Assembly (NCBI RefSeq): GCF_000012885.1
Contig: NC_007498.2
Location: 1,488,001 to 1,552,000, forward strand
Direction: 5' to 3'
Length of the DNA: 64,000 nucleotides
DNA from: Syntrophotalea carbinolica DSM 2380
Lineage (GTDB): Bacteria > Desulfobacterota > Desulfuromonadia > Desulfuromonadales > Syntrophotaleaceae
This document shows, piece by piece, positions 19,261 to 21,897 of this stretch (position 1 is its first letter; each line of letters starts with the position of its first letter). The notes under the pieces were generated by a model, which worked only from the letters and a program-made list of their open reading frames with translations, had not been told where the DNA came from and searched no databases. Both the position numbers and the translations under genes were made by a program.

Positions 19261-19467
19261 ATGGCGAGAATAACGGTCGAAGATTGCCTTCAGCAGATTC
19301 CCAACCGCTTTTTGCTGGTAATGGTGGCTGCCAAGCGGACCAAGCAGCTGTACAAGGGCGGTCAACCGCTTATCGAAAACAAATCCAATAACAAGCGGGT
19401 GGTTCATTGCCTGCGTGAAATCGCCGCCGGGAAAGTCGATTACGAAATTCCCGCGCGCAAAGCTTAG
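19261..19467 (+). CDS. rpoZ: RNA polymerase omega subunit
   Basis: Omega is a small core subunit of RNA polymerase that helps fold beta-prime and contributes to a ppGpp binding site in Proteobacteria. The 68-residue protein starts [20 protein letters not shown] and contains [12 protein letters not shown] and [14 protein letters not shown], the family pattern. The start follows AAAAGGA. It is 21 bases downstream of gmk, in the same operon. A strong terminator at 19622 separates it from the Rel gene, so the usual rpoZ-rel linkage is kept in order but probably not in one transcript. Confidence 0.95.
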
Positions 19468-19740: not shown

Positions 19741-21897
19741 ATGCTCCGTTTAGATGAAATAATCGAAAAGATTCTGCTCTACAATCCTCAGGCCGATGTC
19801 GACGTTCTGCGTAAGGCATACGTTTACAGTGCCAAGGTTCATCGTGGCCAATCACGCTTGTCCGGTGAGCCTTATCTCAACCACAGCCTTGAAATTGCCA
19901 ATATTCTCATCCGGCTCAAAATGGATGTGCCGACCATCACCACCGGTTTGCTGCACGATATCCTTCAGCAGAATCTGGTCGATGCGACGGAGTTGCAGAC
20001 TCATTTCGGTGAAAATGTCGGGGAGTTGGTACAGAGCCTGACCCGCCTCGGCCGCATAACCTTTACCACGAGTGAAGAGCAGCAGGCCGAGAATTTCCGT
20101 AAAATGTTGCTGGCTATGGCCAGCGATATACGGGTCATTCTGGTCAAGCTTGCCGAGCGACTGCACGATATGCGTACCCTGGAAAGCCGCGATGCCGCCG
20201 AGCAGCGGCGTATTGCCCAGGAAACCCTCGATATTTATGCGCCGCTGGCCAATCGCCTCGGTATCAGTTGGATGAAATGCGAACTGGAAGATTTGTCCTT
20301 ACGCTACGTTTTGCCCGAGGTCTATTCCGAACTGCGCACCAAAGTCGAACTGCAGAGTAAAAACCGGGCGGGTTATGTGGAGGAAGTTCGTAAGCAGTTG
20401 TACGAAAAAATGGTGCAGAACGGCATCGAGGGAGAGTGCTACGGCCGTCAGAAACATCTGTATTCCATCTGGCGTAAAATGCAGCGTCAGGGCATCGAAT
20501 TCGAACAGGTCTATGATCTTATCGCTTTTCGGGTGCTGGTAAAGGACGTGCGGGACTGTTATGCCATGCTGGGCGTGATTCATGCGGCCTGGAAGCCTAT
20601 CGCCAGCCGTTTCAAGGATTATATCGCCATGCCCAAGGCGAATATGTACCAATCGCTGCATACCACGGTTATCGGGCCCTACGGAGAGCGGATGGAGGTC
20701 CAGATCCGGACCGAGGAGATGCATCGGGTCGCTGAGGAAGGTATCGCCGCCCACTGGAAATATAAGGAAGGGCGGGGTGGCGACAGTGTCGTCACCAAAG
20801 ATGAGAAGCAATTCGGCTGGTTGCGGCAAATGCTCGATTCCCAGCAGGAGTTCTCCGATTCCCACGAATTTGTCGGTTCGGTGAAAGGCGATCTGTTTTC
20901 CGAGGAGGTCTATGTCTTTTCCCCCAAAGGTGAGGTGAAGGCTTTCCCTCGTGGCGCAACGCCCATTGACTTCGCTTACAGCGTGCATACGGAGGTCGGT
21001 AATCGCTGCGTCGGCGCGCGCGTCAACGGTAAGCTGGTGCCGCTGAAAACCCCTCTTAGCAATGGCGATGTGGTTGAGGTCGTGACATCCCCCAACCAGA
21101 CACCCAGCAAAGACTGGCTCAAGTTTGTCGTCACCTCGCGGGCGGCCAGTAAAATCCGCCACTGGGTCAAGACCCAACAGCGGGAAAAAAGTATCGAGCT
21201 CGGCAAGGAGCTGTTTGAAAAACGACTGCGCAAGTACGGATGCAGTCTCAAGAAAGTTTTGGCCTCCAAGGAGTTTTCCCAGGCGATGCAGGAGCTTGGT
21301 TATCATGCCTCCGCCGATTTGCTGGCCGGGATCGGCTACGGCAAGGTGCCGCTTGGCCAGGTGGTCAGTCGGGTGATTCCCGCCGATGTACGGCGCCCTG
21401 AAACGGAAGATAAGGAGACGCTTCTGCCGGAAGCCGGACCTGTCCGTAAAAAGCCTTCAAGCGCCATCAAGATTCAGGGGATTGGCGATATCATGGTGAG
21501 GTTCGCCAAATGCTGCAATCCGTTGCCGGGTGATCCGGTGGTAGGTTTTATTACCCGTGGTCGTGGTATTACCGTGCATACGGTCGATTGTCCAAGCGTT
21601 TTGGAAAGTGATGCGGACCGGCAAATCGAGGTTGAATGGGATGTCAAGAAAAAGGCATCGCATACGGCCAAGATCCGCCTGGCTACCGAGGACCGCAAAG
21701 GGGTCCTGGCCAACGTCAGCAATGCCATCAGTGCCTGTGAAGCCAACATTTCCAGCGCCAGTGTTCAGCGGACCAAAACCCATAAGAGTCTTATTGTTTT
21801 TGCGGTGGAGGTGGACGATGTGGAGCACCTCAATCGCGTAATCAATGCCCTGCATCAGGTAAAAGGAGTCTATCAGGTCGATCGCTTGCGGCACTGA
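19741..21897 (+). CDS. rel: RelA/SpoT-type (p)ppGpp synthetase with altered hydrolase site
   Basis: This 718-residue protein has the full RSH layout: HD hydrolase domain (about 20-170), synthetase domain (about 225-350, with RFKDYIAMPKANMYQSLHTT and EVQIRTEEMHRVAEEGIAAHW), TGS domain (about 380-445, with VFSPKGEVKAFPRGATPIDF) and a C-terminal ACT domain. The synthetase motif RFKD looks active. The hydrolase domain keeps His48, His72 and Asp73, but the canonical HDxxED reads HDILQQ (Gln76, Gln77), and the DRLHNMRT segment reads ERLHDMRT (Glu139, Asp143). Four positions tied to manganese binding or catalysis in characterised Rel proteins are therefore changed. I infer strong synthetase and weak or absent ppGpp hydrolase. 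It follows rpoZ, where the single bifunctional Rel is usually found. Confidence 0.9.
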   Translation: MLRLDEIIEKILLYNPQADVDVLRKAYVYSAKVHRGQSRLSGEPYLNHSLEIANILIRLKMDVPTITTGLLHDILQQNLVDATELQTHFGENVGELVQSLTRLGRITFTTSEEQQAENFRKMLLAMASDIRVILVKLAERLHDMRTLESRDAAEQRRIAQETLDIYAPLANRLGISWMKCELEDLSLRYVLPEVYSELRTKVELQSKNRAGYVEEVRKQLYEKMVQNGIEGECYGRQKHLYSIWRKMQRQGIEFEQVYDLIAFRVLVKDVRDCYAMLGVIHAAWKPIASRFKDYIAMPKANMYQSLHTTVIGPYGERMEVQIRTEEMHRVAEEGIAAHWKYKEGRGGDSVVTKDEKQFGWLRQMLDSQQEFSDSHEFVGSVKGDLFSEEVYVFSPKGEVKAFPRGATPIDFAYSVHTEVGNRCVGARVNGKLVPLKTPLSNGDVVEVVTSPNQTPSKDWLKFVVTSRAASKIRHWVKTQQREKSIELGKELFEKRLRKYGCSLKKVLASKEFSQAMQELGYHASADLLAGIGYGKVPLGQVVSRVIPADVRRPETEDKETLLPEAGPVRKKPSSAIKIQGIGDIMVRFAKCCNPLPGDPVVGFITRGRGITVHTVDCPSVLESDADRQIEVEWDVKKKASHTAKIRLATEDRKGVLANVSNAISACEANISSASVQRTKTHKSLIVFAVEVDDVEHLNRVINALHQVKGVYQVDRLRH

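Follow-up and report, generated by a model that had tools for sequence, protein, structure and literature searches.

The Rel protein of Syntrophotalea carbinolica DSM 2380 combines an intact (p)ppGpp synthetase site with an altered hydrolase site, and the second RSH of the same genome, RshD, displays the reverse pattern of residues. Comparison across the order Desulfuromonadales makes it highly probable, given the residues found in both proteins, that a dedicated hydrolase, RshD, made Rel's own hydrolase dispensable and that Rel repeatedly became a RelA-like synthetase. The window that holds rel is a stretch of 64,000 nucleotides (contig NC_007498.2, positions 1,488,001 to 1,552,000), and positions given below without a genome or locus label are those of the window.

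The rel open reading frame (19741 to 21897, + strand), recognized by its profile and Pfam matches, encodes a complete long RSH of 718 amino acids (TIGR00691, 755 bits against a cut-off of 499) that we predict to make (p)ppGpp and to carry a pseudo-hydrolase domain. Pfam matches on the + strand delimit an HD_4 hydrolase domain at residues 26 to 175 (19816 to 20265), whose active site is altered, a RelA_SpoT synthetase domain at residues 235 to 344 (20443 to 20772), a TGS domain at residues 390 to 449 (20908 to 21087), an alpha-helical and RIS (zinc-finger) region (AH/RIS) at residues 462 to 622 (21124 to 21606), and an ACT (RRM) domain at residues 639 to 715 (21655 to 21885). The gene is flanked by a 68-amino-acid open reading frame (19261 to 19467, + strand), which we take to be rpoZ (omega), and by a Ribonuc_L-PSP (RidA) family member.

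Codon reading and a residue-by-residue alignment, with RelSeq (1vj7) and other solved Rels as references, confirmed both of the hydrolase site changes described in the initial annotation. The HDxxED motif reads HDILQQ (H72, D73, I74, L75, Q76, and Q77; 19954 to 19971, + strand, codons CAC GAT ATC CTT CAG CAG). The canonical DRLHNMRT segment reads ERLHDMRT (ERLHD at 20155 to 20169, + strand), with E139 (GAG, 20155 to 20157) replacing the Mn ligand D144 and D143 (GAT, 20167 to 20169) replacing N148. Residues H72, D73, Q76, Q77, E139, and D143 align with RelSeq positions 77, 78, 81, 82, 144, and 148, so that in RelSeq numbering the changes are E81Q, D82Q, D144E, and N148D, and the string of seven key positions reads HHDQQED, with four of the seven changed. 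The Rel proteins of B. subtilis, S. aureus, and M. tuberculosis, like RelSeq, carry E, D, D, and N at these four places, and Q76, Q77, E139, and D143 are common to all six genomes of the genus that were read, including that of the window. His53, His77, and Asp144 are the Mn2+ ligands of RelSeq (PMC13299517), and the HD and ED motifs of SpoT are catalytic, with Mn2+ being essential (PMC9974481), according to the available portions of these two sources. H48 (19882 to 19884, + strand), which aligns with the Mn ligand H53, is retained, as are H72 and D73 (H77 and D78), and the replacement of D144 by Glu is conservative; with these residues, some residual hydrolysis by the protein is possible.

The synthetase motif had been called conserved, and it is: RFKD, an RxKD motif and not the ExDD of E. 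coli RelA, occupies residues 290 to 293 (20608 to 20619, + strand), and all 11 of the synthetase residues checked are canonical. Set against the residues of a bifunctional Rel[HS], the protein departs at the hydrolase site and agrees at the synthetase site, RxKD included. These residue states support the earlier proposal that this Rel would mostly make (p)ppGpp.

It had also been proposed that the cell would need another hydrolase, and a search of the genome, which is a single contig of 3,665,893 bases, yielded exactly one RSH besides Rel. Two HD_4 and two RelA_SpoT matches are present, and they belong to Rel and to RshD, a protein of 477 amino acids encoded outside the window (G000:C1:1250715-1252148; L002:706-2139) that is 29% identical to Rel and whose hydrolase site appears intact and synthetase site degenerate. 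A genome with no second hydrolase is excluded by this gene. A candidate third RSH at G000:C1:1666254 (L007; 60 residues, 30%, TGS region) was rejected after no HD_4 or RelA_SpoT match was found there.

The Pfam matches of RshD are HD_4, a weak RelA_SpoT (31 bits, cut-off 27), and TGS; beyond TGS the Pfam scan returned no match, and neither a RIS nor an ACT domain was detected. RshD has a canonical hydrolase site (RKSGEP, H, HDVVED, and DRMDN), and all seven key hydrolase residues are canonical in each of the 69 RshDs read across the order. The synthetase site is degenerate in the same 69 as aligned: S, A, T, K, or N stands at the equivalent of D264, and R, S, and R replace K243, K304, and the E of EVQIRT, respectively. 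Because 25 of these proteins come from genomes in which Rel is still intact, RshD was probably hydrolase-only before most Rels changed. The equivalent of RelSeq K45 is Lys in 68 of the 69 RshDs (Arg in the other) and Leu in eight intact Rels used for comparison; judged by this position, RshD may have an origin other than a recent duplication of the order's own Rel. An AlphaFold model of RshD has a moderate mean pLDDT of 76.5 and is poor beyond about residue 350. In Foldseek searches with this model, full-length SpoT (7qpr) had the best PDB E value (4.5e-26), followed closely by B. subtilis Rel (6yxa, 6.0e-26), and E. coli RelA had a higher TM-score, so the fold match does not discriminate among them. 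Matches to small alarmone hydrolases were far weaker than those to long RSHs.

In the genome of the window, a dksA/traR zinc-finger gene (Pfam zf-dskA_traR; L002:173-661, - strand) lies divergent from rshD. DksA acts with ppGpp on RNA polymerase; as a general functional link to rshD, however, this neighbor was rejected, the pairing occurring in just 5 of the 48 loci that have full 3-kb flanks. On its downstream side, rshD has a UPF0047 (yjbQ-type) gene (L002:2157-2573), and the same arrangement, either direct or with a gap of about 1 to 2 kb, is seen in 31 of these 48 loci. Directly after rshD in Malonomonas rubra is an open reading frame (L265:4423-5571) whose product presumably resembles a polysaccharide deacetylase.

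RshD was present in 113 of 121 order genomes that are at least 80% complete. Matches at about E 1e-111 or better, some of them partial, account for 112, and the 113th (G069) is a contig-end fragment of 115 amino acids that is 81% identical to the RshD of G062. None of 119 class members outside the order gave a match at RshD level, and in a 394-genome sample of the phylum such scores were confined to its 11 genomes of the order. In that sample the RshDs of the order scored at least 842 bits, and the next match, at 335 bits, fell in a frame of 725 amino acids, the length of a long Rel. A contig scan for relatives with two peptide patterns, which finds close relatives only, gave records (80 of 90 kept) that were all titled either as Desulfuromonadales types or as unspecific deltaproteobacteria or Thermodesulfobacteriota. 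Among the titles of carrier records are Pelobacter, Desulfuromonas, Desulfuromusa, and Malonomonas, and two named strains are Malonomonas rubra DSM 5091 and Desulfuromusa kysingii DSM 7343.

Eight order genomes did not yield RshD: two with an intact Rel (G021 and G055), four with an altered Rel (G065, G068, G077, and G084), and two in which no Rel was seen either (G031 and G087). All eight assemblies are fragmented drafts of 120 to 470 contigs, and it is possible that the missing RshDs are due to assembly gaps. Three of the genomes with an altered Rel (G065, G077, and G084) yielded neither RshD nor another hydrolase in their draft assemblies, which counts against our preferred explanation; G065 is rated 100% complete, though it is in about 470 contigs. 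G068 (L338) encodes a 181-amino-acid HD protein with an intact HDxxED motif, which resembles small alarmone hydrolases and could serve as a stand-in for RshD. An HD protein with an HDxxED motif, in a frame of 272 amino acids, is likewise present in G055 (L337).

The hydrolase site of Rel was found to vary widely within the order. Of the 123 order genomes seen, we read Rel in 107; two with split frames (G025 and G085) were left out, leaving 105, five of which (G017, G037, G089, G091, and G114) have frames that are short but span both sites. Hydrolase residues were intact at all seven positions in 35 of the 105 and altered in 70, including those of G080 and G058. The number of changed positions was one in 10 Rels, two in 8, three in 27, four in 16, five in 6, and six in 3. 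Changes at E81 or D82 affect 69 of these 70 altered Rels, and 33 have a change at a position of the metal site (H53, H77, D78, or D144). D82 has given way to different residues in different lineages (Q, S, N, K, T, E, R, P, A, and V), a pattern that looks like decay. Some losses are recent, since G098 (HDTFADT) adjoins G099 (HDTLEDT) and G029 (HDTIENT) adjoins G023 (HDTIEDT). The synthetase residues, meanwhile, were intact in all 105, as were the R and K of RxKD. Outside the order, the hydrolase site was intact in all 40 Rels read from the 119 genomes (the 18 top HD_4 scorers, 20 taken from the lower and middle ranks, and two further genomes, G124 and G125); two partial reads, cut by a contig end or by the frame, were intact where seen (DRLHN in G179 and H53 in G183), and G123 gave no Rel. 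The split rel frames of G025 (L043) and G085 (L118), each running over two frames, may be assembly errors, and their first halves show altered sites.

Intact and altered Rels are interspersed in such a way that several independent losses are needed to explain them. On a tree of the Rel SYNTH-to-CTD region, built with the hydrolase domain omitted from 103 order and 10 outgroup sequences (113 rows; G037, G089, G025, and G085 left out), at least 10 changes are needed. Rooting this tree on the other class members and treating losses as irreversible gives 12 changes, and 5 are forced if only the well-supported branches are considered. A tree of a different gene, rshD (68 rows; G012, where Rel was lacking, was dropped), likewise requires at least 10 changes, 4 of them forced by well-supported branches. 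Both trees were built by a quick method.

The altered hydrolase domain (HD) has diverged faster than the synthetase domain (SYNTH). The mean HD/SYNTH divergence ratio was 1.28 to 1.83 in six altered families and 1.50 within the genus of the window (15 pairs), as opposed to 0.71 to 0.89 in six of seven intact groups; the family comparison excluded eight genomes whose frames were truncated, short, or split, along with all pairs closer than 0.03 in SYNTH distance. Family f19 (G119, G120, and G121) has intact hydrolase residues and a ratio of 1.45 (3 pairs), and this family has possibly been caught early in the loss of the hydrolase. Omega was calculated for 31 hand-chosen close pairs, 20 of them containing an altered Rel and 11 of them intact-intact, with dS saturated in one domain for two of the intact pairs. 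HD omega was 0.02 to 0.25 in the 20 pairs containing an altered Rel and exceeded SYNTH omega in 15 of them, versus 3 of the 9 usable intact pairs. The altered domain is thus somewhat relaxed but still firmly under purifying selection, and the low HD omega after the change indicates that the fold is still selected.

These data bear on the possibility that Rel is still bifunctional, with HDxxQQ and E139 forming an unusual hydrolase site that still works and RshD acting as an auxiliary enzyme. We regard this as unlikely, although several observations are compatible with it: the equivalents of H53, H77, and D78 are kept within the genus of the window (except for H53 in G008), a Glu in place of D144 could still bind metal, and in three close pairs of this genus HD omega is 0.020 to 0.042, about as low as SYNTH omega, so that relaxation is not visible there. 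Both E81 and D82 have become Gln, however, and sister genera in the same family have lost either H77 (to Ile or Val) or both H53 and D78. Moreover, HD outpaces SYNTH in the altered families and in this very genus, and does not do so in the intact groups other than f19.

Less probable still is that the pseudo-HD domain now recognizes another nucleotide or ligand and has not simply lost its activity. Persistent purifying selection after the change and the fixation of four changes in all six genomes of the genus would fit such a gain, but D82 substitutions that differ by lineage resemble decay rather than convergence toward a single new site, and constraint would be expected in any case, the pseudo-HD of E. 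coli RelA being described in the available part of PMC8012599 as regulating its synthetase. Finally, neither a mistake in base calling or assembly nor a decaying pseudogene has more than a negligible probability: split rel frames occur elsewhere in the order (G025 and G085) and none in the window, where the 718-residue frame is intact, the synthetase residues are conserved, omega is far below 1, Asp to Gln requires two base changes, and the same four residues recur in all six genomes of the genus, so that the changes are not sequencing errors.

The observations are best accommodated by a model in which RshD, its synthetase already degenerate, was in place no later than the base of the order. 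Its presence would have removed the need for the hydrolase of Rel, which would then have been lost about ten times independently. Rel would make (p)ppGpp on starved ribosomes and keep its dead HD domain as an allosteric or regulatory part, and RshD, with its intact Mn-dependent hydrolase site, non-catalytic synthetase remnant, and TGS domain, would degrade (p)ppGpp. Lacking RIS and ACT, RshD is probably not controlled through the ribosome. What we infer from residues and pattern is which reactions the two enzymes carry out, that the pseudo-domain is regulatory, and which change led to the other; the contrast between lineages with and without RshD is one phylogenetic event and is thus correlational with respect to cause. 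Counting against the model are the 10 of 70 altered Rels that differ at only one of the seven positions, the high HD/SYNTH ratio of the still intact family f19, and the small numbers of changes (5 and 4) that well-supported branches force on the two trees. The initial annotation had suggested a lineage-specific split of functions, and a split is supported by the residue patterns, but its scope appears wider than was guessed, being order-wide and, on the Rel side, of repeated origin. As a broader statement, we hold it somewhat likely that in the Desulfuromonadales the gain of a short, probably ribosome-uncoupled RshD freed Rel from hydrolysis and that a change to one-way, RelA-like synthesis then recurred about ten times without ExDD or a longer loop.

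If this is true, neither ExDD nor the longer loop is needed for a one-way synthetase, and the order constitutes a replicated natural experiment on the transition from bifunctional to monofunctional RSH, with stages of one to six altered residues visible. An independent division of synthesis and hydrolysis would then span a whole order and be recurrent on the Rel side. Close pairs of intact and altered Rels (G098 and G099; G023 and G029) allow a comparison of which residues fail first, and the system makes it possible to ask what role a retained pseudo-hydrolase domain plays and whether one-way synthesis results from ExDD and the longer loop or produced them as side effects. There is a caution here, too: annotation alone is not enough to call a Rel bifunctional.

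The existence of RshD has been reported before. Atkinson et al. (2011; PMC3153485) described, in the part of their paper available to us, RshD as a second long RSH in Pelobacter carbinolicus, labeled both it and the Rel of that organism [HS], and listed RshD from four deltaproteobacteria as a group formed for convenience. The second RSH found here is probably this same P. carbinolicus RshD, but the family now appears order-wide, with a hydrolase-only residue pattern in place of the bifunctional label. The same source placed P. carbinolicus RshD beside RshC[HS] of Bacillus at 76% in its tree, and RshC[HS], like RshD, is truncated after TGS. It treated the RelA/SpoT division as a Beta- and Gammaproteobacterial event and labeled deltaproteobacterial Rel bifunctional. 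A search of titles and abstract openings, with subscription journals mostly outside its range, found no description of the Rel/RshD split, and in the literature so covered the reciprocal loss, its order-wide spread, and its recurrence went without mention.

Among known systems, the small alarmone hydrolases (Mesh1, RelH, paSpo, and others) likewise place a separate ppGpp hydrolase beside Rel, but these are single HD domains, whereas RshD has 477 residues with a synthetase remnant and TGS. The RelA/SpoT pair of Beta- and Gammaproteobacteria is similar to the arrangement seen here in that a predicted pseudo-hydrolase long RSH with intact synthetase residues is accompanied by a second RSH with a putatively working hydrolase. 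The Rel of the window nevertheless falls below the RelA equivalog cut-off (567.5 bits versus 728; NCBI PRK10872) and keeps RxKD where RelA has ExDD (motif rule in the accessible part of PMC3153485). Its alpha6-alpha7 loop, lengthened in RelA according to the portion of PMC8012599 at hand, is not lengthened, measuring 25 residues in every Rel examined (67 altered and 70 intact). The closest match, to judge from the available text of PMC9974481, is the RelA[hS] and SpoT[Hs] pair of the Moraxellaceae, in which the second RSH has a pseudo-synthetase too. RshD shows the SpoT[Hs] residue pattern in 69 of 69 proteins, but without the RIS/ACT C terminus of SpoT. The order of loss also differs: in the Gammaproteobacteria the change in RelA came first and that in SpoT followed, in the Moraxellaceae (PMC9974481, same text), whereas in the Desulfuromonadales the synthetase of RshD appears to have gone first and the hydrolase of Rel later and repeatedly.
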